DNA from: Amycolatopsis rubida
Lineage (GTDB): Bacteria; Actinomycetota; Actinomycetes; Mycobacteriales; Pseudonocardiaceae
Length of the DNA: 64,000 bases
Assembly (NCBI RefSeq): GCF_900115345.1
Contig: NZ_FOWC01000002.1
Span: forward strand, 310,001-374,000
Direction of reading: 5' to 3'
A model generated the notes under the pieces. The model ran no database searches and was not told the origin of the DNA. It saw nothing but the letters and a program-made list of their open reading frames with translations. The translations under genes were made by a program, and so were the position numbers. Numbering within the stretch: the stretch's first letter is position 1; each line of letters opens with the position of its first letter. This document shows, in pieces, positions 3,909 through 49,169 of this stretch.

Positions 3909-4020
3909 TGGGAAGTCCCCTCGTTCGTCGGTCTCTCTGCCTGCCATCGCGGGCGTGAAGCAAACCAGCACTCATGGTCGTCTTGTCCGGATGGTAGGTC
4001 GGCGCGCAGCACAGCCGGAT

Positions 4021-4042
4021 CCCCTGAAAACCCTTCTAGGGG
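4021..4042. promoter_or_regulatory. CCCCT/AGGGG element in front of the left PKS gene
   Basis: CCCCT and AGGGG flank a 12-base centre, followed on the minus strand by GGATCCGG. The same layout occurs at 32712-32733 in front of the other PKS gene, and the two intergenic regions are recognisably homologous. This is probably a regulator site just upstream of the promoter; the factor is not known. Confidence 0.5.
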
Positions 4043-4061
4043 AAGGAAAATCGGTGCTCCG

Positions 4062-5258
4062 TCACCAGGCGATGCGCAGGAGCGACGGACCCCGCACGAT
4101 GACGCCGTACTCCCACTTCACGCCATCGCGGCCGTCCGCGAACCGCAATTCCGGAAACCGCACCAGGATCGCCTTCAACGCCTCCTGCAACTCAAGACGG
4201 GCCAACTGCGCACCAATGCAATGATGCGGCCCATGCCCGAACGCCACATGCGGATTCGGACTCCGCGTCAAGTCCACCACATCCGGATCCGCGAACACCT
4301 CCGGATCACGGTTAGCCGCATGCAACGCAGGCAACACCGGATCACCCGCCCGCACCACCACATCACCCAAGCGAACATCCTCGACCGCATAACGCGCGAA
4401 CATCGCCGCCGTGTTGACCGGCACCCACCGCAACAACTCCTCCACCGCCGCCGGCACCAACTCCAGGTTCTCCCGCAACTGCGCCACCAGGTCCGGCCGC
4501 GTCAACAACGTGAAAACAAAACTCGGCAACGCCGACGAAACCGTCTCCACCCCACCAGTCAACAACCCCGCACCAGCGATCGCGATCAACTCGCTCTCAC
4601 TCAGCTTCTCACCAGCATCACGCGCATAAACAAGCGCACCAAGCAAATCATCAGTCGGCTCCTCACGACGCCGCGCAACCAACCCCGCCACATACCCATC
4701 CAACCGATCGCCGTAGACATCCAGCACATCACCCTTCGCCGTCGCGTCGCTGACGAGGGCCTGAGTCCACTCGCTGAAAATCCTGTGATCCTCCTCCGGC
4801 ACACCAAGCAACTCACAGATCACCGTCACCGGCAACGGCCGCGCAAGCCCCTCCACGAGATCGCCAGGCCCGCCGCTCTCGACCATCCCGTCGATCAGCT
4901 CATGCACCAGCACACGGACACTCTCCCGCATCGCCTCCAGCCGACGCGCGGTAAACGCCTTGCTCACCAAACGACGCAACCGGGAGTGATCCGGCGGATC
5001 CATCCCCATAATGCCATCACCCATCTGCTGACGACGCATCCTCGGCTGATCAAGCCCCTGCGCCAACTCACGACTGAACCGCGAATCAGTCAACACCAAC
5101 TTGACGTCGGCATACCTCGTCGCCAACCACGCCGGCTCACCAAACGGCAACTGCACCCGACTCACCGGCTCGTCACACTGCAACCGACGATACGTCTCAG
5201 AAACAGACGTCTCACACATATCGAACGGATACGCCCGCACAGTCCGACGAATGCTCAT
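4062..5258 (-). CDS. Cytochrome P450, copy 1
   Basis: A 398-residue bacterial P450. It has the K-helix ExxR (EELLR), the heme-binding FGHGPHHCIG with its cysteine, and a GGVET stretch in the I helix. It therefore looks like a working monooxygenase rather than a cysteine-less glycosyltransferase helper. The protein is identical to the one at 32741-33937; I see one base difference in the gene, and it is silent. Starts ATG (5258) or GTG (5261) both fit the GGAGGGG site. It is transcribed away from the glycosyltransferase at 5534, and the left PKS gene follows. Its leader still contains the last dozen codons of the mutase E gene, so this copy seems to be the derived one. It presumably oxidises the macrolactam; the position is unknown. 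Confidence 0.95.
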   Translation of the reverse strand: MSIRRTVRAYPFDMCETSVSETYRRLQCDEPVSRVQLPFGEPAWLATRYADVKLVLTDSRFSRELAQGLDQPRMRRQQMGDGIMGMDPPDHSRLRRLVSKAFTARRLEAMRESVRVLVHELIDGMVESGGPGDLVEGLARPLPVTVICELLGVPEEDHRIFSEWTQALVSDATAKGDVLDVYGDRLDGYVAGLVARRREEPTDDLLGALVYARDAGEKLSESELIAIAGAGLLTGGVETVSSALPSFVFTLLTRPDLVAQLRENLELVPAAVEELLRWVPVNTAAMFARYAVEDVRLGDVVVRAGDPVLPALHAANRDPEVFADPDVVDLTRSPNPHVAFGHGPHHCIGAQLARLELQEALKAILVRFPELRFADGRDGVKWEYGVIVRGPSLLRIAW

Positions 5259-5295
5259 CACAATTCCCCTCCGATCACAGCCATCGGCTGCTCCA
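4062..5295. repeat. 1234-bp direct repeat, copy 1 (P450 plus 3' tail of mutase E)
   Basis: Matches 32741-33974 base for base except g at 4910 versus a at 33589, a silent Leu codon change. The left boundary is exactly the P450 stop codon. The right boundary lies in sequence that codes the C-terminus of mutase E in the other copy. Confidence 0.95.
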
Positions 5296-5329: not shown

Positions 5330-5382
5330 ACGAAAAGCTATGCGCGCCGGCCCCCGGATCCCCACCCCTAACGGCCCCTAAC
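5330..5382 (-). promoter_or_regulatory. Promoter region with CCCCTA direct repeat, like that of the ligase operon
   Basis: Contains CCCCTAACGGCCCCTAAC at 5365-5382, then GATCC and GAAAAGCTAT. The same blocks in the same order and spacing occur at 38409-38459 in front of the starter-unit ligase operon. On the minus strand the element reads TTAGGGG-CCG-TTAGGGG. It lies between the divergent P450 and glycosyltransferase genes and may serve both. Confidence 0.6.
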
Positions 5383-5533: not shown

Positions 5534-6796
5534 GTGCGAGTCATGTTGATGGTCTTCCCGACGAGGACGCACGTCTACAGCATGGCCCCGGTCGGCTGGG
5601 CGCTGGCCGCCGCCGGGCACGAGGTGCGGTTCGTCGGCCAGCGCAATCCCCGCGAGGTCCTGCCCTTCGCCGAGACCGGCCTCGACGCGATGTGGTTCGG
5701 CGAGGACCTCGACATCGCGGAGCACCGGCGGCTCAGCGCCGGCGGCGACGACACCGCGCACAGCGAGCACCAGCTTTCGGAAAGCCGCCCGGAGCGCTAC
5801 ACCGAGGAGTACGTGCGCACCGTCTACGACGGCTGGGTCGACGTTTTCCGCTGGAACACGCCGGAACCGCTGCTCAACGAACTCGTCCGGTTCGCCCGGC
5901 ACTGGCAGCCGGACCTCGTCGTATGGGACCCGCTGGTCTACACCGCGCCGATCGTCGCGCAGGCGGTCGGCGTCCCGCACCTGCGGATGATGTACGCGGC
6001 CGACCAGACGGCGCGAATCGGCGCGCAGTACCGGGACCTGCGCGCGAGCAAGCCCGAGGACACCAGCCCGGACCCGTTCGTGGAATGGATGTCTGCCGCG
6101 GTGGGCCGCTACGGCGCGGACTACGACGAGAACCTGCGCTACGGCGTCAAAACCATCGACTGCCACCCGTCCTACCTCCGGTACGACGGCGTCGACGTCG
6201 ACTACCTCCCGGCGCGGTTCGTGCCGTTGAACAAACCGATGGCGCTGCCGCGCTGGGTGGTCGAACCCCCGTCGCGCCCGCGCGTCATGCTGACCCTCGG
6301 CATTTCCAACCGGCAGACGCTCGGCGAAGAGGAGACCTCGGTCTCTGCGCTGCTCGACGGCCTTTCCGACCTCGACGTCGAAGTGATCGCGACGCTCAAC
6401 GCGGAGCAGCTCGCGTCGGTGGACAAGGTCCCGGACAACGTGCGCGCGGTGGACTTCGTGCCGATGTACGAGCTTCTCGCGAGCTGCTCGGCCATCGTGC
6501 ACCAGGGCGGCGGCGCGACGATCGGCAACGCGGTGGTCAACGGGGTCCCTCAGCTGGTGATCCCCGGCACCACGTGGAGCGAGCGGATCTCCGCGCTCGC
6601 ACAGGTGAAGCGCGGCAACGGCCTGATGGTGGACCTCGAGGACGTCACTCCGAGCACCGTCCGAAGCGGACTTCAGCGGTTGCTGGAGGAACCGTCCTTC
6701 CGGGAGTGCTCGCTGGAAGTCCGGGACGAGATGCTGGCCGCGCCGACCCTTAACGACCTCGTACCGGAACTGGAGCGGATCGCTCGATGCCGGTGA
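5534..6796 (+). CDS. Macrolide-type glycosyltransferase 1 (GT1 family)
   Basis: A 420-residue protein of the antibiotic glycosyltransferase family (EryCIII/DesVII-like). The N-terminal acceptor domain starts with RVMLMVFPTRTHVYSMAPVG. The C-terminal nucleotide-sugar domain carries HQGGGATIGNAVVNGVPQL. The GTG start was chosen because the 420-residue paralog at 42633 starts at the aligned ATG; a GGAG site precedes it. It should attach a sugar to the macrolactam or to a first sugar. The stop lies inside the kinase gene, a 10-base overlap, so the two are probably translated together. Two similar transferases could mean two sugars or one redundant copy. Confidence 0.93.
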   Translation: MRVMLMVFPTRTHVYSMAPVGWALAAAGHEVRFVGQRNPREVLPFAETGLDAMWFGEDLDIAEHRRLSAGGDDTAHSEHQLSESRPERYTEEYVRTVYDGWVDVFRWNTPEPLLNELVRFARHWQPDLVVWDPLVYTAPIVAQAVGVPHLRMMYAADQTARIGAQYRDLRASKPEDTSPDPFVEWMSAAVGRYGADYDENLRYGVKTIDCHPSYLRYDGVDVDYLPARFVPLNKPMALPRWVVEPPSRPRVMLTLGISNRQTLGEEETSVSALLDGLSDLDVEVIATLNAEQLASVDKVPDNVRAVDFVPMYELLASCSAIVHQGGGATIGNAVVNGVPQLVIPGTTWSERISALAQVKRGNGLMVDLEDVTPSTVRSGLQRLLEEPSFRECSLEVRDEMLAAPTLNDLVPELERIARCR

Positions 6797-7920
6797 CGCA
6801 GCCGCCCCGCGTCGTCCGCACCATCGGCTTCCTCCTCGCGAGCTTTCCCCTCCGGATCGTCGCGTTCGTGCTCGTGCTCGCCACGACCGTGCTCGGCATC
6901 GCCACCACCATGCTGTGGATCGGCATCCCGATCCTGATCACCGCGACTTCGACGGCCCGCGGCTTGGCCGGCGTGGAACGCCGCTGGGTGCGCACCATGC
7001 TCGGCGTCGACGTCCCGCCGCCCCGCAGGCTGCCGCACGGCGCCGGGCTGCTGCTGACGTGGCAGACCCGGCTCGTGGACCCGGCCACGTGGCGCGAACT
7101 GATCTACGCCTTGCTCGCGTTCCCGCTGGGCATCGTGGAATTCGTGGCCGGGATCGTGTCCGCGGCCGTGCCGCCGTTCGGCATCTTCGTGGCACCGCGG
7201 ATCGGGGCGATGCACGGCGCGTTGGCGCTGTCGATGCTCGGGCCGGACCGGACGGCGCGGCTGGAGGCCCGCACCCGGCAGCTCAAGGATTCGCGTGCCC
7301 GCGGCGTCGACGCCGTGGAGAGCGAGCGCAAACGCATCGAACGCGACCTGCACGACGGGGCGCAGCAGCGGCTGGTCGCCGTGGCGATGAGCCTGGGCCG
7401 GGCGCAGCTGAAGCTTGACGTCGACGATCCTGCCGATCCCGCCGCCACCGCCGCCGTGCGCGAACTGGTCGGCGCGGCCCACGCCGACGCGAAACTCGCC
7501 GTGTCCGAGCTGCGCGACCTCGCCCGGGGGATCTACTCCCCGGTGCTGCAGGACCGCGGTCTTGACGCCGCGCTGTCGGCGCTGACCGCGCGGATGCCGA
7601 TTCACGTGGACGTCAAGGTGACGGTGGAACCGCGGCCGCCCGCGCCCGTGGAGACCACGACGTACTTCATCGTCAGCGAAACCCTCGCCAATATCGCCAA
7701 GCACGCGGGCGCGGACCGCGCGTCGGTGCGCGTGACCCGCGACGACGACACGGTGGTCGTCGAGATCATCGACAACGGTCACGGCGGCGCGTCCGTGCGT
7801 CCCGGAGGCGGGCTGGCCGGCCTCGCCGACCGGGCAGGCACCATCGACGGCGTGCTCACCGTGGTCAGCCCGGCGGGCGGGCCGACGGTCGTGCGCGCCG
7901 ACCTTCCCGTCCGCTGGTGA
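6787..7920 (+). CDS. Sensor histidine kinase 1 (NarL-family type), no response regulator beside it
   Basis: 377 residues. Hydrophobic segments lie at about 12-55 and 105-140, consistent with the membrane sensor domain of this kinase group. The phosphoacceptor box ERDLHDGAQQRL is near residue 190, and the ATPase domain has SETLANIAKHAGAD and DNGHGG. It is closely similar to the kinase at 43886-45001 along its whole length. That paralog is followed by a response regulator; here 261 bp of non-coding DNA follow and no receiver gene or relic is seen. It may signal through the regulator at 45025 or may no longer function. It overlaps the glycosyltransferase gene by 10 bases. Confidence 0.93.
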   Translation: MPVTQPPRVVRTIGFLLASFPLRIVAFVLVLATTVLGIATTMLWIGIPILITATSTARGLAGVERRWVRTMLGVDVPPPRRLPHGAGLLLTWQTRLVDPATWRELIYALLAFPLGIVEFVAGIVSAAVPPFGIFVAPRIGAMHGALALSMLGPDRTARLEARTRQLKDSRARGVDAVESERKRIERDLHDGAQQRLVAVAMSLGRAQLKLDVDDPADPAATAAVRELVGAAHADAKLAVSELRDLARGIYSPVLQDRGLDAALSALTARMPIHVDVKVTVEPRPPAPVETTTYFIVSETLANIAKHAGADRASVRVTRDDDTVVVEIIDNGHGGASVRPGGGLAGLADRAGTIDGVLTVVSPAGGPTVVRADLPVRW

Positions 7921-8054
7921 AGCGCGACCAGCTGCTCGTCGGAGCTGCCCGGGTTCCTTCCGCGTCGCATGCCCGTCCGGCGTCCGGACGGCACGAGCGC
8001 GAACCGACCCCCTAATGGCCCTGCGCACCGGCCCGCCCGCTCGGCCAAGGTCCG

Positions 8055-8074
8055 CTTTAGACGGTCTTTAGGGG
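8055..8074. promoter_or_regulatory. Double CTTTAG element upstream of the deacetylase gene
   Basis: CTTTAGACGGTCTTTAGGGG, in which the CTAAAG-type half-sites are 11 bases apart when read on the minus strand. A further CCCCTAA lies at 8009-8015. It is 107 bp before the deacetylase start and may control the deacetylase-dehydrogenase-epimerase genes. Confidence 0.5.
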
Positions 8075-8181
8075 TTGTCGCAGACCTCGGCGGATGTCAA
8101 ATTTTTCTTGCGTTCCAAGCCATTTCGCACGGCTCGTTTCCGCTGGGGGTTTCACCGCCCGGACAAGGACTGGGGAATCGT

Positions 8182-10222: not shown

Positions 10223-10237
10223 GAAAGGGACACTAAC

Positions 10238-11254: not shown

Positions 11255-11439
11255 GCGTTCCGGAGCTTGACGTAAACGGCGGCAAGGTGGCTGGCGGCGG
11301 TGTTCGCGGACACTCCCAGTACCTCCGCGATCACCGCGACCGGCGTGCCCTGCGCGGCGAGTTCCGCGACCCGCAGCTCTACGTCGGTCAGCACTCTCGC
11401 CCCGCATTCGGTCAGGCTTTCCGTCAGCTTCTCCGTCAC
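11251..11439 (-). CDS. Stand-alone 62-residue LuxR-type HTH protein
   Basis: A short gene whose GTG overlaps the TGA of the large LuxR-family regulator (GTGA). Its residues 15-60 form a complete LuxR-like helix-turn-helix: LTDVELRVAELAAQGTPVAV, then IAEVLGVSANTAASHLAAVY and KLRN. There is no sensory or ATPase part. It resembles the C-terminus of the preceding protein, so it may have arisen by tandem duplication of that end. It may compete for, or cooperate at, the same operator. No ribosome site of its own is evident; expression probably depends on coupling. A decaying fragment is the alternative. Confidence 0.6.
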   Translation of the reverse strand: MTEKLTESLTECGARVLTDVELRVAELAAQGTPVAVIAEVLGVSANTAASHLAAVYVKLRNA

Positions 11440-14024
11440 TGCCCGGCACCGGCCAGTTCGCCCGCCAGCGCGCTCCGTCCGGCCACGCCGAGTTTCCGGT
11501 ACACTCTGGTCAGATGTTGTTCCACAGTGGACACTGTGATGTACAGCGTCTCCGCGATCTGGCGGTTGGTCCGCCCGTGTGCCGCGAGTTCCGCGACCCG
11601 CAGTTCGGCGTCGCTCAGCGCGATCGCGGCCGGCCCGTCCGGATCCGCGCGCGGCGGCTCCGGTCTCGATGCCACCGGACGAGGCGTGAGCGGACGCAAC
11701 GGCTGTCGTGGTACCTGAACCGGCTTCACCAGGCCTGCCGAGCGTTCCGCGCGCTGGCCGAGCTGGTTGATCGCGCGGACGGTGCGAGCCAGTTCGAGCC
11801 GGTCGCCGGATTCCTTGAACGCCTCCGCCGCCCGGTTCAGCAAACCGGACCGCGCGCCGGTGTCTCCCGCGAACGCCAGCACCCGCAGCGCCACCGCCTG
11901 AGAGAACGAGTCCGTCGTGTCCGCCAGCTGCTGTTTCGCCAGCTCGACCGCCAAGGTCGGGTTGCGCAGCCGGAGGTTCGCCTCGGCGAGGTCGGTCCGC
12001 CACGGCGCCACGGCGGGCAGGTCGAGGTCGCTGTCCCGGAGAATCCGCTGGCATTGCTGAAAATCGCTCACCGCGGAGAGCCCTCGGTTCGTGGCGAGAT
12101 GGAACTGTCCGCGCGCGCGGAGGAACCGCACCCCGCCGAGCGTCGTGAACACCGATTCCGGCAGTGCGTGGCGCAATACCCCAGCCGCGGCCTTGAACGC
12201 TCCTGCCGCGGTGTACGCGGTCAGCATCGTGGCGAGCGGATACGTGATCGCGACGCCCCAGTTCGGTTCGTCAAGCAGCGCGAGCGCTCGGCTCGCCGCC
12301 TCCGCCGCGGTGGCCGGCTCGCCGCGACGCAGCAGGAGACTCGCGCCGATAGCGTCGAGCATCGCCTTCCACGTCACCGCACCGCGATACTCCGCTTCCT
12401 CGGCCAGCGACGTGCACCAGCCTTCCGCGCGGTCCGCCTTGCCGTCGTAAGCCAGTGCGAGAATCGCGGTGGCCAGCGCTTCCAGCGACGTGTCGGACAG
12501 CCGGCAGTTCTGGAGAATCCGTTCCGCACACACCGAAGTCTCTTCGCTGCCACCGACCTGCCAGACGGACGCGAGCGTGGTCGCCGTGCGCATCCAGGGA
12601 TCCGATGCGTCGACCGACAACGCCGGTACCGTGCCGTAATGCCAATGCGCGGCAAGCGTCAGCTCGGCAGCCGTCCGCGGGTGCAGCGGCTCGAGGTCGT
12701 CGCCCAGCCTGACCAGCGCGGACTCGAAGGTTTCCCGGTCGCCGAACCACAACGACTGGCGCACCACCGCGATCCGGTCGGACTGGTCGAGCGATTCGGC
12801 TTCGCGCAACGCCGCGAGATGCGGAGCGGCCGCCGCCGGATTGACCCGCCACGTGATCTTGGCCAGCAGCTGCGAAATCATCTGCTGCTCCCACGACGCG
12901 GCAGTCGTCGACGCCGCCAGCTGCAGGCAACGGGTAGCGAAGTCGACGTCGTCGCCGAGCATCACCTGCTCCGCCGCCGCGACCAGCACCGGCAACGCCC
13001 ACTCCGCCTGAGCTTCGCCCGCCGCCACGAGATGCCGGGCGACCTCCGGTGCCGGCAACCCTCGTGCGTGCTTCACCTCAGCAGCCCGGATGTGCAACTG
13101 CACTTTCTCGGACCCGCGCAACCCGCCGACGACCGCCGCCGCGGCCGGCTGCTGGCGGAACCGCACGCCGTCGACCAGCCCAGTCTCCACAAGCAACCCC
13201 GCGGACGCCTCCGCCTCGACCGGGTCCACGCCCGCGACTGCCGCGACCGCGTCCGTCGTCACGTCGGTGTCCAGCACCGCGATCGCCGTCGCCACTTCCC
13301 GCAACGGCGAACCGTAGCGATGCAGAAGCCGTTGCACCGCGTCGGAATATACCGGTCCGTCGTCAACCGAGCTGCGACGTGCGTCGACCAAAGCGCTGAC
13401 CAGCAACGGATTTCCCGCGCTCAGCCCGTGGATCCGCTCGGCTTCGCCGTGGTCCGGGACCAGCTGCGCGATCGCCTCCACCGTGAACGGCGTGAGATGC
13501 ACGTACCGGTGCGGCTGCGCGGCGAAGTTCATGCCCTCGCCGGAATACCACCCGTCCGGCTGCGTCAGCACCAGCAGCATCCCCGCCGACCGCGCCCGCC
13601 GCTGCAACCGCAGCAACAACCGCGCCGACGTCTCGTCAACGTGCTGCACATCGTCGACCGCGATCAGCAGCGACCGCTCCCGCGCCAACCGGTGCAACGC
13701 GCTGCACAAGGCGGCGATCCGGTCCTCGCCGTCCGCCGCGGCCAGCATTTCGCGCGGCAACGCCGGGCTCGCCAGCAACTGGTCCAGCACACCTCCGTCG
13801 ACGTCGCACTCGTCGGCCGCTCCCGCCGCGGTGAGCGTCAGAACGCCCAGCTCGCGGGCTCGCGCCACCACTTGGTTCTGTACCTGCGTTTTCCCGCTGG
13901 CCGGTCCTCCGCCGACCAATACCGTGTCTCCTGCCCCCGCATCGCATTCGATCAGCAGGCCCTCCAGGAGGGACACTGCTTCGTTCGGCTCGGTGCGGCG
14001 GTTCTGCCCCCAGTTCACGCCCAT
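11436..14024 (-). CDS. Large ATP-binding LuxR-family (LAL) transcriptional regulator
   Basis: 862 residues from the ATG at 14024, chosen because GAGGAG precedes it and because a cluster motif occupies the sequence just upstream, where a longer reading frame would otherwise run. An N-terminal AAA-type ATPase has Walker A GGGPASGKT and Walker B LLIAVDDVQ; a long helical TPR-like middle follows. The C-terminal LuxR HTH reads LSDAELRVAELAAHGRTNRQ and then IAETLYITVSTVEQHLTRVY. Proteins of this type commonly are pathway-specific activators of polyketide clusters. It is the best candidate for binding the CCCCTAA elements, including one in front of its own gene. Confidence 0.92.
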   Translation of the reverse strand: MGVNWGQNRRTEPNEAVSLLEGLLIECDAGAGDTVLVGGGPASGKTQVQNQVVARARELGVLTLTAAGAADECDVDGGVLDQLLASPALPREMLAAADGEDRIAALCSALHRLARERSLLIAVDDVQHVDETSARLLLRLQRRARSAGMLLVLTQPDGWYSGEGMNFAAQPHRYVHLTPFTVEAIAQLVPDHGEAERIHGLSAGNPLLVSALVDARRSSVDDGPVYSDAVQRLLHRYGSPLREVATAIAVLDTDVTTDAVAAVAGVDPVEAEASAGLLVETGLVDGVRFRQQPAAAAVVGGLRGSEKVQLHIRAAEVKHARGLPAPEVARHLVAAGEAQAEWALPVLVAAAEQVMLGDDVDFATRCLQLAASTTAASWEQQMISQLLAKITWRVNPAAAAPHLAALREAESLDQSDRIAVVRQSLWFGDRETFESALVRLGDDLEPLHPRTAAELTLAAHWHYGTVPALSVDASDPWMRTATTLASVWQVGGSEETSVCAERILQNCRLSDTSLEALATAILALAYDGKADRAEGWCTSLAEEAEYRGAVTWKAMLDAIGASLLLRRGEPATAAEAASRALALLDEPNWGVAITYPLATMLTAYTAAGAFKAAAGVLRHALPESVFTTLGGVRFLRARGQFHLATNRGLSAVSDFQQCQRILRDSDLDLPAVAPWRTDLAEANLRLRNPTLAVELAKQQLADTTDSFSQAVALRVLAFAGDTGARSGLLNRAAEAFKESGDRLELARTVRAINQLGQRAERSAGLVKPVQVPRQPLRPLTPRPVASRPEPPRADPDGPAAIALSDAELRVAELAAHGRTNRQIAETLYITVSTVEQHLTRVYRKLGVAGRSALAGELAGAGQ

Positions 14025-14079: not shown

Positions 14080-14109
14080 CCCCTAAGCCCAGCCAACCGC
14101 GATCTAAAG
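14080..14109. promoter_or_regulatory. CCCCTAA / TCTAAAG pair upstream of the LAL regulator gene
   Basis: CCCCTAA at 14080-14086 and TCTAAAG at 14103-14109; the two CTAA cores are 21 bases apart, two helical turns. They lie 56-85 bp before the regulator start, which suggests autoregulation or control by the response regulator. Confidence 0.5.
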
Positions 14110-14311: not shown

Positions 14312-15631
14312 GTGAGCACGACTACGACGCTCCCCGCCTGGCAATTGCCAGACCGGGACCTGACCACCAGACTCCTGACCACTCAACGACAGCAGAACGT
14401 CGCTTACGCCGCACAACTGGAGACCATCCGGGAACTGGAATCGCGCGGCGCCTTGCCGGAGGGCTACACCTCGACCTCGGCCTACCTGGCGACGATCCTG
14501 CACGTGACCCTGCGCGAGGCCCGCTCCCGGCTCGCCCAGGCCACCGGCACGCTGCCGCTGACCTGGAAAGCCCTGTCCGCGGGCGAAATCACCGCCCAGC
14601 ACGCAGCGGTGATCGCCGAATTCCTCGCTGCCGCCCCGCGGTGGCTGACTCCCGAGGACTACACCGTCGCCGAAGACACCCTGGTGACCCTCGCGGCGCA
14701 GGCCAACCCCAGCATCGTCCGCCGCGCCGCGACCCGGCTGAAGATCTACTGGGACAGCGATCCCGCCGACGCACCCGGCTCGCCCGACCTGGACCACGGC
14801 TTGGACCCCGACTCGGTTCCCGGCTCGGACTCGGGCTCGCGTCCCGAGGAAGCCGCCCGCCCCCGGCGGGAGTTCCGCTGGCAGTGGACCCAGGGCGGCC
14901 GTTTCCGCTTCAGCGGCAACGTAGACCACGAAACCGGCACCCTGATCGAACAACTGCTGGTCCCCCTGGCCGCACCGGACCCCGCGATCACGCCCGGCAC
15001 CCCCGACCCCCGCACCCCGGCCGAACGCCACGGCGACGCCATCGCCGCGATCGTCGACCTGGCCGCCCGCACCCCGGACCTGCCCGCCAAAGCCGGCGAA
15101 CGAGCAGTCGCGACGGTGACGGTCGACTTGGAGACCCTGCGAGGCACGGCGAAAACCCTCGTCACAGAAGACGAATCCGTGCTGACCGCGGCTGATCTGC
15201 GCCGAATCCTGTGCGACGCCAAGGTCTACCCCGCGGTCCTGGGCACCGAGGGCCAGGTCCTTGACCTGGGCCGCTCCACCCGCACCGCCACGAACGCCCA
15301 GCGCCGGGCCCTGGCGATCCGCGACCGCGGCTGCACCTTCCCCGGCTGCGACCGCAGTCCAAAGTGGACCACCCCGCACCACATCATCCACTGGGCCCAT
15401 GGCGGTCCCACCGACCTGGACAACCTCGCCTCCTGCTGCGAACGCCACCACCGCCTGCTGCACCACAGCGGCTGGAAGATCGTCATCCGCGAAGGTGCCG
15501 TGCACTGGATCCCGCCTTCCATCCTCGATCCGGAGCGGAAACCGCTGCGCAACACCGCCCACAACCCACCGCCCACCCCCTTGCGAACCGCGACCATGAG
15601 CACCCCTCCCCCGCCGCGCCAAGGCAGCTAG
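14312..15631 (+). CDS. DUF222 / HNH endonuclease domain protein (13E12 repeat family)
   Basis: 439 residues. The N-terminal two thirds are the DUF222 region; an acidic, low-complexity linker lies near 150-190. The C-terminal HNH nuclease has GCTFPGCDRSPKWTTPHHII followed by HWAHGGPTDLDNLASCCERH, giving the zinc and metal ligands. Members are multi-copy, self-spreading genes in actinobacteria related to the mycobacterial 13E12 repeats. It starts with GTG just behind a perfect SOS box. It sits between the regulator and decayed genes, so it may have been involved in the breakage seen at 16.2-16.85 kb. A role in the metabolite pathway is unlikely. Confidence 0.88.
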   Translation: MSTTTTLPAWQLPDRDLTTRLLTTQRQQNVAYAAQLETIRELESRGALPEGYTSTSAYLATILHVTLREARSRLAQATGTLPLTWKALSAGEITAQHAAVIAEFLAAAPRWLTPEDYTVAEDTLVTLAAQANPSIVRRAATRLKIYWDSDPADAPGSPDLDHGLDPDSVPGSDSGSRPEEAARPRREFRWQWTQGGRFRFSGNVDHETGTLIEQLLVPLAAPDPAITPGTPDPRTPAERHGDAIAAIVDLAARTPDLPAKAGERAVATVTVDLETLRGTAKTLVTEDESVLTAADLRRILCDAKVYPAVLGTEGQVLDLGRSTRTATNAQRRALAIRDRGCTFPGCDRSPKWTTPHHIIHWAHGGPTDLDNLASCCERHHRLLHHSGWKIVIREGAVHWIPPSILDPERKPLRNTAHNPPPTPLRTATMSTPPPPRQGS

Positions 15632-15848
15632 GGGTCGTCCAGCGCCGCGCACTCCTGCTTTCGCGACCGCGGTGGTGGTTTTGCGAGCACACTCACCACA
15701 ACCCTGAGCCGCTGACAACCAGGGATCCACCGGGGATAAGGGTGGGTAAACCCCAGGGAAGCTTCAGGAGCACACCCCATGGCTCCGGCGGCCCCATTCC
15801 GAGAAACTAGGTACATCAACGAAACACCCCCTCAACCAGGAGGCCATC

Positions 15849-16118
15849 ATGATGACGATCACCACCGCCCCCGGCGTCACCCAGCGGATGCTCTCGAACG
15901 GCCACCTGGAGCTGACCTGCCGCACGTCCAACCGGCACATCGAGTGCGAACCAGTGGCCGCCGCGATGTGGATCGCCCTGAAGCAGCACAACGGCGACGT
16001 CGACCGGGCCGCAAGCACCCTGTCCGCCCTGTGGCACACGAACGAAGACGACACCCGCTACGACCTGATCGCCCTGGCCGGTTCCCTGTGCTCCTTGGGC
16101 ATGGCCACCGAGTCGTGA
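15849..16118 (+). CDS. Small hypothetical protein, PqqD-like pattern
   Basis: 89 residues with a good AGGAGG site 5 bases before the ATG. The pattern (RMLSNGHLEL, then AAAMWIALKQHNGDVDRAAS, then L..LGM) resembles the small winged-helix PqqD-like proteins that bind peptides or partner enzymes, but the match is only by eye. There is no signal peptide or membrane segment. No radical SAM or peptide-modification gene is nearby. I cannot assign a function; it may have arrived with the DUF222-HNH gene upstream. Confidence 0.55.
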   Translation: MMTITTAPGVTQRMLSNGHLELTCRTSNRHIECEPVAAAMWIALKQHNGDVDRAASTLSALWHTNEDDTRYDLIALAGSLCSLGMATES

Positions 16119-32632: not shown

Positions 32633-32711
32633 TGCGCACTCCACCGCGGTAGCCAGGCAGCATTCATGGGTCGTCGATCGGATCGTAGGGCGGACTCGGG
32701 CCGCGCCGGAT

Positions 32712-32733
32712 CCCCAGAAAACGTCGTTAGGGG
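32712..32733. promoter_or_regulatory. CCCC/TTAGGGG element upstream of the large PKS gene
   Basis: CCCCAGAAAACGTCGTTAGG followed by GG; on the minus strand it begins CCCCTAACG and ends in TGGGGATCCGG. The region 32633-32740 is homologous to 3909-4061 in front of the left PKS gene. It is probably a regulated promoter internal to the starter-P450-PKS gene string. Confidence 0.5.
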
Positions 32734-38343: not shown

Positions 38344-38408
38344 GACTGCCACTCCCGAAAGGATTCGTAGAATCACCGTGCCTGCGCGGGATAGCTCCCC
38401 GACGTCGG

Positions 38409-38459
38409 AGAAAAGCTATCCGCGCGCAGCCGGTGATCCACACCCCTAACGGCCCCTAG
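38409..38459 (-). promoter_or_regulatory. Promoter region of the starter-unit operon with CCCCTA repeat
   Basis: CCCCTAACGGCCCCTAG at 38443-38459 plus GATCCACA and GAAAAGCTATC, in the same order and spacing as at 5330-5382. On the minus strand TTAGGGG occurs twice at 10-base spacing, then GGATC and a possible -10 in GGATAGCTT. Confidence 0.6.
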
Positions 38460-42404: not shown

Positions 42405-42491
42405 CACCTCGTTCGCCTCCCTCGTCCTTCTCCGGCGCAGCGCGGCCGGATCCGGTTACCTGTCTATCCGTCGGCGCCCGCGCGCCACCAG

Positions 42492-42511
42492 CCCCTAAGG
42501 GGCGTCTAAAG
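42492..42511. promoter_or_regulatory. CCCCTAA-TCTAAAG pair between the peptidase and glycosyltransferase 2 genes
   Basis: CCCCTAAGGGGCGTCTAAAG, with CTAA cores 11 bases apart, in a divergent intergenic region. This is one of the clearest examples of the cluster element. Confidence 0.6.
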
Positions 42512-42632: not shown

Positions 42633-43895
42633 ATGCGCGTGATGCTGATGGTCCTCCCGACGAGGACGCACGTTTACAGCATGGCTCCGGTGGGCTGGGC
42701 GCTGGCCGCGGCAGGGCACGAGGTGCGCTTCGTCGGGCAACGCAACCCGCGCGAGGTCGCGTCGTTCGCCGAGACCGGGCTGGACGCCATGTGGTTCGGC
42801 GACGAACTCGACCTCGCCCGGCACCGCAGGCTCCAGGTCGATCGCAACAACGCGAGGCAGGGCGACTTCCGGATCTCCGAAAGCCGTCCCGAGCGCTACA
42901 CCGACGAGTACGTGCGCAACGTGTACGAGCACTGGGTCGACGTGTTCCGCTGGACCACTCCGGATTCGCTGCTCGACGAACTCGTCGTCTTCGCCCGCCA
43001 ATGGCAGCCGGACCTCGTGGTGTGGGACCCGGTGATCTACGCCGCGCCGATCGTCGCGCACGCCCTCGGGGTGCCGCACCTGCGGATGATCGACGCCGCC
43101 GACCAGACCGCCCGCATCGGCGCGCAGTACCGCGACCGCAGAGCCAGCCGTCCTGAGGACACCTCGCCGGACCCGTTCGTGACGTGGATGTCCGCCGCGG
43201 TCGGCCGGTTCGGCGCCGACTACGACGAAACCCTGCGCTACGGCGTGCGGACCATCGACTGCCATCCGTCGTATCTGCGGTACGACGGCGTGGACGTCGA
43301 CTACGTCCCGGCCCGGTTCGTGCCGCAGGACAAGCCGGCGGCGATCCCCTCGTGGGTGCTGGAGCAGCCGGAGCGGCCGCGGGTGATGCTCGCCCTCGGC
43401 AGCTCGGACCGGCAGGTGCCCGGCATCGCGGAGACCGCCGCCGGGGACCTGCTGGACGGCCTCGCCGGCCTCGACATCGAGGTGATCGCCACGGCGGACG
43501 CGAGCCGGCTCGCGTCCGTGCGCGCGATCCCGGACAACGTCCGCGCGGTCGATCCCGTGCCGATGAACGAACTCCTCGCCTCGTGCTCCGCGATCGTGCA
43601 CCAGGGCGACGGCGCGACGATCGGCAGCGCGGTCGTGCACGGCGTCCCGCAGCTGGTCATCCCGGACGCCACGTGGAGCGAACGCTGCTCGGCGGTGGCT
43701 CAGGCGAAGCGCGGCAACGGTTTGCTGGTGGACCTCGGGGACGTGACGCCCTCCAGGGTCCGCGCGGGAGTGTGCCGCTTGCTGGAAGAACCGTCCTTTC
43801 GCGAATGCGCGCTCGAAGTGCGCGACGAAATGCTGGCGACGCCCACACTCGACGACCTCGTACCGGAACTGGAACGGATGGCGCGATGCCCGTGA
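42633..43895 (+). CDS. Macrolide-type glycosyltransferase 2 (GT1 family)
   Basis: 420 residues, colinear with glycosyltransferase 1 and very similar throughout. The start RVMLMVLPTRTHVYSMAPVG is shared, and the donor-site segment is HQGDGATIGSAVVHGVPQL, with Asp where copy 1 has Gly. The ATG follows GGAG. Its stop lies 10 bases inside the kinase gene, the same overlap as in the first pair. Substitutions in the donor loop could mean a different sugar or acceptor. Whether both copies are needed for the final product cannot be decided from sequence. Confidence 0.93.
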   Translation: MRVMLMVLPTRTHVYSMAPVGWALAAAGHEVRFVGQRNPREVASFAETGLDAMWFGDELDLARHRRLQVDRNNARQGDFRISESRPERYTDEYVRNVYEHWVDVFRWTTPDSLLDELVVFARQWQPDLVVWDPVIYAAPIVAHALGVPHLRMIDAADQTARIGAQYRDRRASRPEDTSPDPFVTWMSAAVGRFGADYDETLRYGVRTIDCHPSYLRYDGVDVDYVPARFVPQDKPAAIPSWVLEQPERPRVMLALGSSDRQVPGIAETAAGDLLDGLAGLDIEVIATADASRLASVRAIPDNVRAVDPVPMNELLASCSAIVHQGDGATIGSAVVHGVPQLVIPDATWSERCSAVAQAKRGNGLLVDLGDVTPSRVRAGVCRLLEEPSFRECALEVRDEMLATPTLDDLVPELERMARCP

Positions 43896-45001
43896 CGCGG
43901 CCGCCGACCATGCGGGCGATCGGGTTTCTCGTGCTGAGCCTCCCGATCCGGCTCGTCGCGTTCGTGCTGATCCTGGTGACCATGCTGGTCGGCGTCGCGA
44001 CGACGATGCTGTGGATCGGCATCCCGGTCCTGCTGGTCGCGACCTCGCTGATGCGTTCGTATTGCGCCTTCGAACGACGCTGGGCACGCCAGATGCTCGG
44101 CGTCGCGATCGCCGAACCGGCCCGCCGGCCACCGGCCGGACCGGGCATGCTCGCGGTGTGGCAGGCGCGGTTGCTCGACGCCGCCACGTGGCACGAGTTC
44201 GCCTTCGTGCTCATCGCTTTTCCGTTGGGCATCGTGGAATTCGTGGCGGGCGTCGTGTCCATCGCAGCACCTCCTTTCGGGATTTTCGTGGCACCGCGCA
44301 TCGGGGCGGTGCACGGCGAGCTGGCGACGTCGTTCCTCGGCCCGAACCGCACCGCGCAACTGGAAGCGCGCACGCAGCAGCTGCGGAACTCCCGAGCACG
44401 CGGAGTCGACGCGGTGGAGGCCGAACGGCGCCGGATCGAACGAGACCTGCACGACGGCGCGCAGCAGCGGCTGGTGTCCGTCGCGATGAGCCTGGGCCGC
44501 GCCCAGCTCAAACTCGATCTCGACGACCCGACCGCGGTCCGCGAACTCATCGGAGCCGCGCACGCTGACGCCAAACTCGCTGTCTCGGAGTTGCGTGACC
44601 TCGCGCGCGGCATCTACCCGCCGGTGCTCCAGGATCGCGGCCTGGACGCAGCGTTGTCTTCTCTTACCGCAAGAATGCCTATCCCTGTTGAGGTCGAGGT
44701 TACCGTACAACCCCGGCCGCCCGCACCTGTCGAGACGACGACTTATTTCATCGTGAGCGAAACGCTCACCAACGTGACCAAACATTCCGGCGCCGACCGC
44801 GCGTCCGTGCGAGTGACCCGTGACGACGACACCGTAGTCGTCGAGATCACCGACAACGGCCACGGCGGCGCCTCGATGCGCCCCGGCGGCGGCCTGGCCG
44901 GATTGGCCGACCGCGCCGCCACGATCGACGGCGTGCTCACCGTCGTCAGCCCCGCCGGCGGCCCCACCGTCGTGCGGGCCGATCTGCCCGTCCGCTGGTG
45001 A
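43886..45001 (+). CDS. Sensor histidine kinase 2 (NarL-family type)
   Basis: 371 residues with the same plan as kinase 1: hydrophobic sensor segments at about 12-55 and 105-140, the phosphoacceptor ERDLHDGAQQRL near 185, and ATPase motifs SETLTNVTKHSGAD and DNGHGG. It is five residues shorter in the loop after the phosphoacceptor helix. It overlaps the glycosyltransferase gene by 10 bases and is followed 23 bp later by its response regulator. The pairing with a sugar transferase is unusual and suggests sensing of the product or of its intermediates. Confidence 0.93.
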   Translation: MPVTRPPTMRAIGFLVLSLPIRLVAFVLILVTMLVGVATTMLWIGIPVLLVATSLMRSYCAFERRWARQMLGVAIAEPARRPPAGPGMLAVWQARLLDAATWHEFAFVLIAFPLGIVEFVAGVVSIAAPPFGIFVAPRIGAVHGELATSFLGPNRTAQLEARTQQLRNSRARGVDAVEAERRRIERDLHDGAQQRLVSVAMSLGRAQLKLDLDDPTAVRELIGAAHADAKLAVSELRDLARGIYPPVLQDRGLDAALSSLTARMPIPVEVEVTVQPRPPAPVETTTYFIVSETLTNVTKHSGADRASVRVTRDDDTVVVEITDNGHGGASMRPGGGLAGLADRAATIDGVLTVVSPAGGPTVVRADLPVRW

Positions 45002-45024
45002 ATCCTGTTGTGGAGGCAAGAGAA

Positions 45025-45678
45025 ATGCGCGTCGTGATCGCGGAAGACTCGGTGCTGTTGCGCGCCGGGGTGCAAAGCCTGCTCGCGGACGTCGGCATCG
45101 AAACCGCCGCCGCGGTCGACAACGGCGACGATCTGCTGGTGGCCATCCGAGACCACCGCCCCGACCTGGTCATCGCCGACGTCCGCATGCCGCCGACGTT
45201 CACCGACGAGGGCCTGCGCGCGGCTTTGGCCGCCCGCAAGGAAATCCCCGGCCTGCCGGTGCTGGTGGTGTCGCAGTACGTCGAAGGAAGCTATGCGGTG
45301 GACCTGATCGCGGAAGGCACGTCCGGCGTCGGCTATCTGCTGAAGGAACGAGTCGCCGACGTCGCCGACTTCCTGGAAGCAGTCCGCCGCGTCGCCGGCG
45401 GCGGTTCAGCCATCGACCCGGACGTCGTGGCACAGATGCTGTCCCGCAGCCGGGATCCGCTGGAGGCGTTGACCGCACGGGAAACCGAGGTGCTCGCCCA
45501 GATGGCGCAAGGCCTGTCGAACACGGCCATCGCCAAGGCTTTGGTGGTGACGCAGGGAGCGGTGGAAAACCACATCAGCAACATCTTCGCGAAGCTGGGC
45601 CTGGAGGCCAGCCGGGACCAGAACCGCCGCATCCGCGCCGTCCTGACCTACCTGGACAGCACCGCGGTCCACGCCTGA
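45025..45678 (+). CDS. NarL/LuxR-type response regulator
   Basis: 217 residues. The receiver domain has the acidic pocket in VVIAEDS, the phosphoacceptor Asp in VIADVRMPP, and the lysine in YLLKERV. The C-terminal LuxR HTH is LTARETEVLAQMAQGLSNTA then IAKALVVTQGAVENHISNIF. The ATG at 45025 has GGAGG 8 bases before it; a GTG overlapping the kinase stop (44998) is less likely. It is the partner of kinase 2 and may serve kinase 1 as well. It is a second candidate for binding the cluster motif. Confidence 0.93.
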   Translation: MRVVIAEDSVLLRAGVQSLLADVGIETAAAVDNGDDLLVAIRDHRPDLVIADVRMPPTFTDEGLRAALAARKEIPGLPVLVVSQYVEGSYAVDLIAEGTSGVGYLLKERVADVADFLEAVRRVAGGGSAIDPDVVAQMLSRSRDPLEALTARETEVLAQMAQGLSNTAIAKALVVTQGAVENHISNIFAKLGLEASRDQNRRIRAVLTYLDSTAVHA

Positions 45679-46005: not shown

Positions 46006-46728
46006 CTACCGCGCCCGCCAGCTCGTCGCCGGAACAAACCTTGCCAACGGTTGCCGAGGTGACGGCACAGCAGTTTCCTCGCGCCCAGCCCCCGCTGCCT
46101 GACCGACAGCCGCCAATGCCACCAGCAGCGCAGCCACTTCAACGTCGTCCGGGTTCCCGCGCACCACACGTACTGCGGGCGCTACCACTGCAGCGCGCTG
46201 TTCACCGCACGCCCCAACAGCTTCCGCACCAACCACACCCGCAGACGCTGTCACCGCGTCACGCCGTTCACCTCGCCCCCCAACAGCTTCCCCACCAGCC
46301 ACACCCGCAGACGCCGCCAGCGAATCACCCCGCTCGCCTCGCCCCCCAACAGCTTCCCCACCAGCCACACCCGCAGACGCCGCCAGCGAATCACCCCGTT
46401 CGCCACGCACCCCAACAGCTTCCCCACCAGCCACACCCACAGACGCCGCCAGCGAATCACACCGTTCCTCACGCGCAGAAGCAACCTCCAGGCCAACAGC
46501 TTCCCGCGACGCCGCAGGAAGCTTCGTCCTGGCCGCACCTGCGCCCCTTGCCGCCTCGCACCGGTCACCGCGCGTCCCGGCAGCCCGGCCCAAACCACCC
46601 GGCACCCCGCCGGGCTCGCCCCGCGCACCCGACTCGCCAACCGAGGCAAGAACCTCCGATCCCGCCCCCAGATCCGCCGCCTCCATCACATCCCCCGTAC
46701 CTAGACGCGCGACCCGGACCCCCATCAC
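46006..46728 (-). CDS. Acyl-CoA carboxylase epsilon subunit with an expanded repeat region
   Basis: 240 residues; usual epsilon subunits have fewer than 100. The last 55 residues carry the family pattern VRVVRGNPDDVEVAALLVAL...W near the end. This fits its place: the GTG overlaps the stop of the beta subunit. The N-terminal 170 residues are Ala-, Gly- and Glu-rich, with about four tandem 22-residue units like GERGDSLAASAGVAGGEAVG. Epsilon subunits assist and stabilise the carboxyltransferase-biotin carboxylase complex. The repeats may be a spacer. Alternatively, the true start is internal and the repeats are untranslated. Confidence 0.7.
   Translation of the reverse strand: MMGVRVARLGTGDVMEAADLGAGSEVLASVGESGARGEPGGVPGGLGRAAGTRGDRCEAARGAGAARTKLPAASREAVGLEVASAREERCDSLAASVGVAGGEAVGVRGERGDSLAASAGVAGGEAVGGRGERGDSLAASAGVAGGEAVGGRGERRDAVTASAGVVGAEAVGACGEQRAAVVAPAVRVVRGNPDDVEVAALLVALAAVGQAAGAGREETAVPSPRQPLARFVPATSWRAR
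46215..46478. repeat. Four tandem 66-bp repeats inside the epsilon gene
   Basis: The string CAACAGCTTCC recurs at 46215, 46281, 46347 and 46413, exactly 66 bp apart; units two to four are nearly identical. The period is a multiple of three, so the frame is kept whatever the copy number. Confidence 0.9.
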
Positions 46729-48293
46729 ATCGGCGGGTTCCCGTGCTTGCGCGCCGGAACCTCGGCGTGCTTGGCCCGCAACATCGCCAGCGACCGGATC
46801 AGCATCTCCCGCGTCCGGCCGGGCTCGATCACGTCGTCGACCAGTCCGCGTTCAGCCGCGTAGTACGGATGCATCAGCTCGGTCTTGTACTCCTTGATCT
46901 TCTGCCGCCGCACCGCCTCCGGGTCGTCGGCCGCGTTGATCTCGCGACGGAAGATCACATTCGCCGCACCCTCGGCACCCATCACCGCGATCTCGTTCGT
47001 CGGCCAGGCGAGCGAAACGTCCGCGCCGATCGACCGCGAATCCATCACGATGTACGCGCCGCCGTAGGCCTTCCGCAGGATCACCTGCACCCGCGGCACT
47101 GTCGCGTTGCAGTAGGAGTACAGCAGCTTCGCACCGTGCCGGATGATACCGCCGTGTTCCTGGTCCACCCCGGGCAGGAAGCCGGGCACGTCGACCAGCG
47201 TCACCAGCGGGATGTTGAACGCGTCGCAGGTTTGCACGAACCGCGCGGCCTTCTCGCTCGCCTCGATGTCGAGCACGCCGGCGAGCGTCGCAGGCTGGTT
47301 CGCCACGATCCCGGCCACGTGCCCGTCGAGCCGGGCCAGTGCGCACACCACGTTCGTCGCCCACCCGGCGTGTACCTGAAGAAACTCGCCGTCATCGACG
47401 ATTTTCTCGATCACCGCACACATGTCGTACGCGCGGGCCGCGTCGGTCGGCACCACCTCAAGCAGTTCGTCCGTGCGGCGGTCCGCCGGATCGGCCGTCG
47501 GCTCCACCGGCGGCACCTCGTTGTTGTTGGACGGCAGCAACGAAATCAGGTACCGCACATCCTCAAGACAGCTGGGTTCGTCGTCATAGACGAACGCGGC
47601 GACCCCCGATGTCGAGGCGTGCACGTCCGCGCCGCCAAGACCGTTCTGGGTGATCTCCTCGCCGGTCACCGCGTGCACCACGTCCGGGCCGGTGATGAAC
47701 ATCTGCGAGGTTTCGCGCACCATGAACACGAAATCCGTCAACGCGGGCGAATAGGCGGCGCCGCCCGCGCACGGGCCGAGCATCACCGAGATCTGCGGAA
47801 TGACCCCCGAAGACCGGGTGTTGCGCTGGAAAATGCCGCCGTACCCGGCGAGCGCCGTCACGCCCTCTTGAATCCGCGCACCGGCACCGTCGTTGAGCGA
47901 CACCAGCGGAGCACCGGCCGCCGCGGCGAGATCCATCACCTTGTGGATCTTCTGTGCGTGCGCCTCGCCGAGCGCGCCGCCGAAAATGCGGAAGTCGTGG
48001 GCGTACACGAAAACCGTGCGTCCGTACACCGTTCCCCAGCCGCACACCACGCCGTCCGAGTACGGCTTGCGGTGTTCGAGGCCGAAACCCGTCGCGCGAT
48101 GCCGACGCAAGGACTCGATCTCGGTGAACGAACCCGGGTCGAGAAGCAGTTCGACGCGCTCGTGCGCGGTCAGCTTGCCGCGATCGTGCTGCCGGGCGGT
48201 CGCGGCGTCGTCGGGACCGCGGCGTGCGGCTTCCTTGATCTCCCGCAGTTCCTCGAGTTTGCTGTCGAATCCGACCGCCAGTGCCTCAGACAT
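46725..48293 (-). CDS. Acyl-CoA carboxylase beta subunit (carboxyltransferase, PccB/AccD type)
   Basis: 522 residues from MSEALAVGFDSKLEELREIK, preceded by AAGGGG. It has the two crotonase-like halves of biotin-dependent carboxyltransferases, with oxyanion segments such as GGAAYSPALTDF and GGAYIVMDSRSIGAD. It would make malonyl-CoA or methylmalonyl-CoA together with a biotin carboxylase alpha subunit encoded elsewhere. The start overlaps the thioesterase stop by 8 bases and the epsilon gene overlaps its end, so the three are one operon. Because all visible ATs look malonyl-specific, a malonyl-CoA supply role would fit. Housekeeping function is equally possible. Confidence 0.93.
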   Translation of the reverse strand: MSEALAVGFDSKLEELREIKEAARRGPDDAATARQHDRGKLTAHERVELLLDPGSFTEIESLRRHRATGFGLEHRKPYSDGVVCGWGTVYGRTVFVYAHDFRIFGGALGEAHAQKIHKVMDLAAAAGAPLVSLNDGAGARIQEGVTALAGYGGIFQRNTRSSGVIPQISVMLGPCAGGAAYSPALTDFVFMVRETSQMFITGPDVVHAVTGEEITQNGLGGADVHASTSGVAAFVYDDEPSCLEDVRYLISLLPSNNNEVPPVEPTADPADRRTDELLEVVPTDAARAYDMCAVIEKIVDDGEFLQVHAGWATNVVCALARLDGHVAGIVANQPATLAGVLDIEASEKAARFVQTCDAFNIPLVTLVDVPGFLPGVDQEHGGIIRHGAKLLYSYCNATVPRVQVILRKAYGGAYIVMDSRSIGADVSLAWPTNEIAVMGAEGAANVIFRREINAADDPEAVRRQKIKEYKTELMHPYYAAERGLVDDVIEPGRTREMLIRSLAMLRAKHAEVPARKHGNPPM

Positions 48294-49056
48294 GCGCGCG
48301 CCCCTTGTCGACAAGCCGATCGGTCAAGTGCCGGAGAATCACGTCCTGGTGGCGGGTCAGGAAGAAATGCCCGCCGGCGAGCGGAACCAGCTCGAAGCCC
48401 GCCGAGGTGTGCTCGCTCCACGACCGGACCTCGTCGACCGAGGCGACCGGGTCGGCGGTACCGGTGAACGCGACCACCGGGGCGGCCAGCGGCGGGCCCG
48501 GCTGATACCGGTAGGTCTCCACGGCACGATAGTCGTTGCGCACCACGGGAAGGATCATCCGCACGACGTCGTCGTCGCCGAGCAGGTCCATTTCGGTGCC
48601 GCTCAACCGGCGCAGTTCGTCGATCACGCCGTCGTCGGTGCGGGTGTGCACGTTCTCGTTGCGATGCCGCGACGGGGCCCGGCGGCCGGAGACGAAGAGC
48701 GTGTGCACTTCGGTGCCCGCGGCCTCCAGCCGCCGGGTCACCTCGAAGGCGATCATTCCGCCCATGCTGTGCCCGAAGAGCGCGAGCGGCCGGTCGTCGC
48801 GGCCGCGCAGCAGCTCGGCGATCCGGTCGGCCAGCGCATCGATGGTGGTCAGGAACGGTTCGTGCCGCCGGTCCTGGCGCCCCGGGTACTGCACCGCCAG
48901 TACCTCGATGTCCGGCGTCAGCGCCCGCGAAACCGGGAAGTAGAACGGAGCCGAACCTCCGGCGTGCGGCAGGCACACCAGCCTTGCCTTCGCCTCGGGC
49001 GACGTGTGGAAGCGGCGAAACCAGCTGTCCTCGTCAGAATTCGCACTACCCGTCAT
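48286..49056 (-). CDS. Type II thioesterase
   Basis: 256 residues, the normal length. LVCLPHAGGSAPFYF opens the fold, the nucleophile is in LFGHSMGGMIAFE, the aspartate in GTADPVAS and the histidine in LAGGHFFLT. Such enzymes clear stalled or wrong acyl groups from carrier proteins of polyketide synthases. The start MTGSANSDEDSW follows GGTGGG; longer frames run through the promoter. It is first in the operon with the carboxylase subunits, behind a CCCCTAG repeat like that of the cluster genes, which ties this operon to the pathway. Confidence 0.92.
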   Translation of the reverse strand: MTGSANSDEDSWFRRFHTSPEAKARLVCLPHAGGSAPFYFPVSRALTPDIEVLAVQYPGRQDRRHEPFLTTIDALADRIAELLRGRDDRPLALFGHSMGGMIAFEVTRRLEAAGTEVHTLFVSGRRAPSRHRNENVHTRTDDGVIDELRRLSGTEMDLLGDDDVVRMILPVVRNDYRAVETYRYQPGPPLAAPVVAFTGTADPVASVDEVRSWSEHTSAGFELVPLAGGHFFLTRHQDVILRHLTDRLVDKGRAHV

Positions 49057-49152
49057 GTCGTCCCACCGCCTTTCCGACGTCTGCGCCGGGACGACCCGGC
49101 CACGGATCCTTCTTCGCCGACCCACGGTAACCGCGCCCACCGCGCGCAACGA

Positions 49153-49169
49153 CCCCTAGCTCCCCCTAG
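49153..49169. promoter_or_regulatory. CCCCTAG direct repeat upstream of the thioesterase operon
   Basis: CCCCTAGCTCCCCCTAG, two CCCCTAG units 10 bases apart, 97 bp before the thioesterase start and 51 bp before the divergent hydrolase. It matches the spacing of the elements at 5365 and 38443. Confidence 0.5.

Follow-up and report, generated by a model that had tools for sequence, protein, structure and literature searches.

The window analysed here (64,000 nucleotides of Amycolatopsis rubida contig NZ_FOWC01000002.1, positions 310,001 to 374,000, from a 9.87-Mb genome) contains a polyketide cluster whose promoters share a recurrent element, a heptamer reading YTAGGGG in the direction of transcription and mostly present as two copies that start 10 bp apart. 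Judging from sequence comparison, this element is probably a MalT-like double operator of the cluster's own LAL activator, encoded at 11436-14024. Polyketide clusters often have LAL genes as their pathway switches, and MalT is the type LAL protein. The first-pass annotation had suggested direct repeats one helical turn apart, spread over the cluster and bound by a pathway regulator, a reading that the present results support. Genomes and loci are cited below by codes (G### and L###).

Written as its complement CCCCTAR, the heptamer occurs 13 times in the window, compared with a mean of 3.38 in shuffled sequences (standard deviation 1.63, maximum 8), and 0 of 100 shuffles reach 13. The equal frequency elsewhere in the genome that would have told against the annotation is not seen with the exact patterns. 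Of 128 genomic copies, 13 fall in the window, which represents 0.65% of the genome length (15.7-fold, Poisson P 2e-12), and all three genomic copies of the tandem CCCCTAR-N3-CCCCTAR, that is YTAGGGG-N3-YTAGGGG in the direction of transcription, lie there, with 0 for the reversed control. With up to two mismatches allowed, the genome has 24 such tandems, and four of these fall in the window. Twelve of the 13 heptamers are intergenic, whereas intergenic DNA makes up 7.2% of positions 1-50000 (own gene calls); the thirteenth, at 15628, overlaps a stop codon. Control regions of the same genome (L097 and the flanks L004, L005, L007 and L008) hold three YTAGGGG in 100 kb; own-genome loci L091-L096, fetched for their boxes, were kept out of all motif counts.

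The elements are distributed over the cluster as follows, PKS standing for polyketide synthase:

5335..5381, minus strand: P450 promoter, TTAGGGG-N3-TTAGGGG-N24-TAGCTT.
38413..38459, minus strand: promoter of the starter-unit operon, CTAGGGG-N3-TTAGGGG-N24-TAGCTT.
49124..49169, minus strand: promoter of the thioesterase/carboxyltransferase operon, CTAGGGG-N3-CTAGGGG-N23-TACCGT.
3991..4042, minus strand: promoter of the PKS gene running off the left edge, CCCCTAG-N9-CAGGGG-N24-TACCAT, distal half inverted.
32682..32733, minus strand: promoter of the PKS gene at 16850-32644, CCCCTAA-N9-CTGGGG-N24-TACGAT, distal half inverted.
42461..42511, minus strand: promoter of the operon for a proline-iminopeptidase-family hydrolase and a VinK-type acyltransferase, CTTTAGACGCCCCTTAGGGG-N25-TAGACA (not a TANNNT).
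8055..8103, plus strand: promoter of the sugar operon (PIG-L, UDP-glucose dehydrogenase, epimerase), CTTTAGACGGTCTTTAGGGG, with CAAATT at N23 as a loose -10 candidate.
14080..14109, minus strand: element upstream of the LAL gene, CTTTAGAT ... CTTAGGGG, 21 bp apart, without a TANNNT -10.

Every place named by the first-pass annotation holds its motif: tandem 10-bp pairs at 5365/5375, 38443/38453 and 49153/49163, 11-bp pairs of CCCCTAA and a CTTTAGA-type half-site at 42492 and 8068 (minus strand), the 21-bp pair at 14080, and CCCC..TAGGGG forms at 4021-4042 and 32712-32733. Two more copies, at 8009 and 15628, were absent from its list. As to the genes served, the boxes point to the minus-strand P450, starter, hydrolase/VinK and thioesterase operons and both PKS genes, and to the plus-strand sugar operon; by their orientation they do not point to the two glycosyltransferase genes GT1 and GT2, which had also been named. 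The starter-unit operon comprises an AMP ligase (36883-38376), a decarboxylase, MutE and a P450.

The distance to the -10 hexamer is equally regular. A TANNNT stands 23 or 24 bases past the proximal word at five window promoters (N24 for the P450, starter and both PKS promoters, N23 for the thioesterase promoter), and this distance equals a -35 hexamer plus a spacer of 17-18 bases, so that the word abuts the -35 position. The hydrolase/VinK promoter, with TAGACA at N25, and the sugar promoter, with CAAATT at N23, therefore fit only loosely. Two direct-repeat sites, the proximal one at -35, are thus found at three window promoters and their orthologs, with transcription starts deduced from the TANNNT, whereas at the PKS promoters the distal half is inverted and the proximal word is CAGGGG or CTGGGG. 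In the left flank outside the window, L006 has minus-strand boxes at 17203, 7002 and 5890 with TAACGT, TAATCT and TAGCGT at N23-24.

According to Pfam scans of the window proteins, the cluster is one for a glycosylated beta-amino-acid macrolactam. It comprises modular PKS genes, a glutamate-mutase subunit, a pyridoxal-phosphate-dependent decarboxylase, AMP ligases, the VinK-type acyltransferase and the proline-iminopeptidase-family hydrolase, together with UDP-glucose dehydrogenase, epimerase, two glycosyltransferases, P450s, carboxyltransferase, thioesterase, the LAL regulator and a two-component pair; the giant open reading frames (ORFs) were called PKS from their repeats and size plus a ketosynthase search. 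Orthologs of the LAL gene were found at ten loci, nine in Amycolatopsis and one in Saccharothrix. Among them, the genome of A. saalfeldensis DSM 44993 (L014, L141 and L142) has most of the scanned cluster genes in common with the window. On this shared gene content, the window cluster is assigned to the ciromicin/macrotermycin type and is orthologous to the verified A. saalfeldensis cluster, whose product is ciromicin A (PMC10662134). For that cluster, PacR3 of the LuxR family and a two-component system are described; the text nowhere uses the term "binding site" (PMC10662134).

Conservation was scanned in the ten LAL-ortholog loci and six orthologous clusters. The starter-operon tandem (10 or 11 bp) with N24-TANNNT and the thioesterase/carboxyltransferase tandem (10 or 11 bp) with N23/24-TANNNT are each present in 6/6 clusters. 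At the latter promoter, L143 has three copies at 10-bp steps, and in the Saccharothrix cluster the tandem precedes the carboxyltransferase, no thioesterase ortholog being found there at E 1e-20. The hydrolase box with TAGACA at N24-25 also recurs in 6/6 clusters, and the promoter of the PKS gene at 16850-32644, with its inverted distal half and TACGAT, in 5/6 (pattern match). The sugar box is kept, with small changes, in all eight of the ten LAL-ortholog loci that reach that point, and the CTTAGG core upstream of the LAL gene in 9/9 printed ortholog regions (ten loci, L015 left out), where the G run is partly kept. In L009, a P450-type tandem with N24-TAGCTT adjoins GT1.

The two additional copies look like decayed relics when set beside the related loci:

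7988..8015, minus strand: relic of the relatives' TTAGGGG-N23/24-TATCGT promoter, with a shorter spacer and TATCGT changed to TGCCGT (site 8009).
15628..15655, plus strand: relic; in relatives the box precedes a thioesterase-like gene that is absent from this strain (site 15628).

At the place of site 8009, seven loci (L010-L014, L016 and L017) have TTAGGGG-N23/24-TATCGT followed, in L010 and L017 where this was checked, by a long plus-strand ORF whose PKS identity is suggested by its length. The same kind of box, with TAACGT, stands downstream of the LAL gene in L015 and L018. The long ORF is not at this place in the window, and L009, which shares the window's rearrangement, likewise lacks a -10 there.

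The proposed binder has the features of an LAL protein:

11436..14024, minus strand: LAL activator of 862 aa, with ATG at 14024 after GAGGAG, Walker A motif GGPASGKT and a C-terminal LuxR helix-turn-helix (HTH).

Its ATPase part shows an AAA_16 match and an LLIAVDD stretch in addition to GGPASGKT. Pfam places a GerE domain at 841-892 of the long 900-aa ORF, and the last 60 residues match the PDB sequences of GerE, DevR and VraR. The recognition helix, IT[VIPA]STVEQHLTR[VI]Y, is nearly constant over 18 aligned LALs.

Both the promoter geometry and the company of LAL genes extend beyond the orthologous clusters. Of 297 family genomes, 30 contain the exact tandem, at 37 places in all. For spacing, 26 non-own, non-orthologous sites with their own locus were counted (three window loci, L028, L029 and L032 being left out), related pairs that may exist among them all being kept; the five places without their own locus include one overlapping L040, one in an orthologous cluster and three added later. 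A TANNNT stands at N23-25 in 14 of the 26, compared with about 0.1 expected from other offsets. Within 35 kb, a limit set after the distances had been seen, an LAL gene accompanies eight of these 14 complete sites (G043, G184, G206, G260, G125, G109, G173 and G004) and two of the 12 sites without TANNNT (G163 and G057). Of the six other complete sites, four (G124, G278, G247 and G074) are on contigs that are short or end nearby.

An unguided scan (masked N ignored) around 20 LAL genes, picked regardless of nearness to a tandem, returned TAGGGG as the top hexamer of about 1,914 (89 copies vs 29 in 20 random regions) and TAGGGGT as the top heptamer (37 vs 3); YTAGGGG gave 34 vs 8 and the reversed control word 91 vs 96, the excess being inflated because the genomes had been drawn for holding a tandem somewhere. 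Same-strand TAGGGG copies 7-60 bp apart form 17 pairs in these regions, with spacing 10 once, 11 three times and 20 three times. In seven LAL regions whose genomes have no exact tandem, TAGGGG occurs 23 times, compared with nine in seven random regions (P 0.010), and YTAGGGG 12 times compared with three (P 0.018). Within the genus, eight of 13 genomes with an LAL match at E<=1e-80 have the exact tandem and 0/13 without such a match (Fisher P 0.0016), the table taking in the own genome and three with an ortholog. When 149 genomes from across the phylum were surveyed for LAL genes at E<=1e-70, with 6 candidates scored in most, only the window's own LAL came up; a second look in seven of these genomes gave one more.

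The mechanism that would follow resembles that of MalT. The half-site would read YTAGGGG or, at some sites, CTTTAGGGG, and CTTTAGA would be a weaker variant of the distal copy. Two LAL HTH domains (three in one relative) would contact one face of the DNA at intervals of 10, 11 or 21 bp. Since the proximal half-site reaches right up to the -35, the LAL protein is proposed to compensate for a poor -35 element and to bring the housekeeping polymerase to the -10, 23-25 bases further on. As in MalT, the ATPase part may serve for oligomerisation once charged with ATP and an inducer. In this way a single LAL protein could turn on the operons for PKS, starter unit, sugar, P450, hydrolase/acyltransferase and thioesterase, possibly together with the gene that encodes it.

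Several results weigh against assigning the element to the LAL protein, besides the inflated 20-region excess and the retrospective 35-kb limit mentioned above. The three tandem sites added later have no TANNNT at 23-25, which brings the full count to 14/29, and the seven-region set gives a weaker excess than the 20-region set. The distance to TANNNT is unspecific within the 20 LAL regions: YTAGGGG with TANNNT is found 6 vs 1 times at N22-25 and 4 vs 0 at N9-12, and RGGGG with TANNNT 14 vs 4 at N23-25, but also 10 vs 3 at N33-35. Read backwards, the tandem pattern has about 60 matches in the 297 genomes, so that the exact forward tandem, with 37, is no commoner, though in this genome the single heptamer is 16 times as frequent backwards as forwards. 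The complete sites of G179 and G008 are on long contigs without an LAL match (31 first-look candidates scored per genome), and the site upstream of the LAL gene itself is without a TANNNT.

Three candidate binders had been put forward in the first-pass annotation, the LAL protein, the response regulator and a tiny "HTH" protein. The first is the best supported and the second fits less well, while the tiny protein (15849-16118) was set aside for want of an HTH match: it has no Pfam family at E 0.001, weak non-HTH matches at E 0.1-0.3 and no NCBIfam match.

44998..45678, plus strand: NarL-type response regulator of the cluster's two-component pair, the alternative binder.

Phosphorylated by the cluster's sensor kinase, the response regulator would bind the repeats and drive the operons while the LAL protein acts elsewhere. 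It carries a GerE HTH, and its ortholog, present in 10/10 LAL-ortholog genomes, is 87-100% identical. It is thus more strongly conserved than the LAL protein, which is a further point against the latter. Ten loci of its paralogs (67-79% identity) have three TAGGGGT in 110 kb, that is 2.7 per 100 kb vs 0.75 in random DNA, but LAL regions reach 9.4, and the same ten loci show YTAGGGG at background (two in 110 kb, both in L051), no tandem and no TANNNT-spaced box. The site thus does not recur beside close response-regulator paralogs, although this comparison is a weak one because their recognition helices differ at a few residues. In six non-orthologous 20-kb loci with a complete box and an LAL gene, response-regulator-like matches (E<=1e-5) number none in three, are remote in two (47 and 67 bits) and closer in one (238 bits), so that box and LAL go together without a close response-regulator relative in five of the six. 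Taken together, these data make the response regulator an unlikely binder.

The complete sites of G179 and G008, and the box carried by the LAL gene itself, would also agree with a third factor, another LuxR-type or general regulator encoded elsewhere, that reads TAGGGG and counts LAL genes merely among its targets. This is quite improbable given that none of the 13 same-genus genomes without an LAL match at E<=1e-80 has the exact tandem and that 20 PKS regions from ten of them show no enrichment (TAGGGG 16, vs 89 near LALs). Hardly any weight is given to a likeness inherited through duplication of promoter DNA inside the cluster, with no present function. Duplication is seen, in the P450 copies (1,234 bp at 99.9% identity) and in segments 5535-7921 and 42634-45002 (78% identical), but the duplicated stretches stop short of the boxes, single promoters recur in other species, and the -10 spacing is gone at the two boxes that no longer have their genes beside them. 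The fixed distance to the -10 could alternatively make YTAGGGG the -35 element of an alternative sigma factor, which is extremely unlikely, since 23-25 bases fit a separate -35 with a 17-18 spacer and the word is repeated at 10, 11 or 21 bp, with the distal copy inverted at the PKS promoters.

Some features of the neighbourhood were observed in passing. The P450 copies lie at 4062-5295 and 32741-33974, with 400/400 protein positions the same, stop included, and differing flanks, which points to a very recent duplication, gene conversion or an assembly effect. The 78% identical segments are paralogs comprising a glycosyltransferase and a sensor kinase; among the ten LAL-ortholog loci, the first copy sits here only in the window and L009. 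In the stretch that separates the response regulator gene from the carboxyltransferase gene, units of about 66 bp, 89-90% alike, are arranged in tandem (46196-46474). A DUF222/HNH gene (14312-15631) lies between the LAL gene and the gene of the tiny protein; it is also present in the A. nivea, dendrobii, echigonensis, circi and orientalis loci (L009-L013) and not found in L014 and L016-L018. The tiny protein (89 aa, no family matched) is encoded near the LAL gene in 9/10 ortholog loci, L015 starting too close, and a 65% copy is found left of the window at L006 18243; by eye it resembles PqqD-like small domains, a likeness that no family search backs. Other paired CCCCTAA stand outside the cluster in G000 (C24:199276-199291 and C23:322428-322464, 9 and 30 bp apart) and are possible targets of another LAL protein.

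Whether the doubled YTAGGGG(T) abutting the -35 might be a family-wide operator code of actinobacterial LAL activators with the helix ITVSTVEQHLTRVYRK is more tentative, and the chances are put slightly below even. If it were, sequence would show which genes many LALs of still unstudied antibiotic clusters act on. The predicted operator and fixed promoter geometry allow an LAL regulon to be proposed from sequence and live promoters to be told from relics; a defined site also allows the activation of silent clusters to be tested, and antibiotic LALs would be tied to the MalT mode of activation.

SARP repeats resemble the window element in spacing and place, but SARPs have another fold and read another word, and Pfam matched no SARP domain in the window proteins that were scanned. 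Like the present element, SARP sites are heptamer direct repeats at antibiotic-gene promoters (PMC5930380). The PAS-LuxR operator CTVGGGAWWTCCCBAG of PimM and FscRI is also read by a LuxR-type HTH and its half-site CTVGGGA is near CTAGGGG, but it is an inverted repeat, and these regulators have a PAS domain and no LAL ATPase (PMC5143413). As far as their accessible text goes, three papers on LALs of antibiotic clusters name no operator word (PMC5015266, PMC6784220 and PMC10100954), and TAGGGG/CCCCTA was not found named as an LAL operator in the open-licence literature, although it may exist in print. The closest precedents of the window element are MalT and a MalT-like regulator of Actinoplanes. 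The MalT boxes of E. coli and Klebsiella are direct-repeat sites of an LAL-class activator, with the proximal site overlapping the -35 (PMC7567727). Their sequence, GGGGA(T/G)GAGG, is not the word found here: at that place the window promoters have YTAGGGG, its copies in most cases spaced by 10 bp, and an antibiotic cluster makes up the regulon. In Actinoplanes, the MalT-like ACSP50_3915 is encoded in the region it serves and is assigned, with backing from deletion and overexpression data, a region-wide motif over the -35 of 17 start sites (PMC7567727). That motif, TCATCC-N5-GGATGA, is a palindrome with another core, and its region resembles amino-acid metabolism rather than a macrolactam cluster (PMC7567727).

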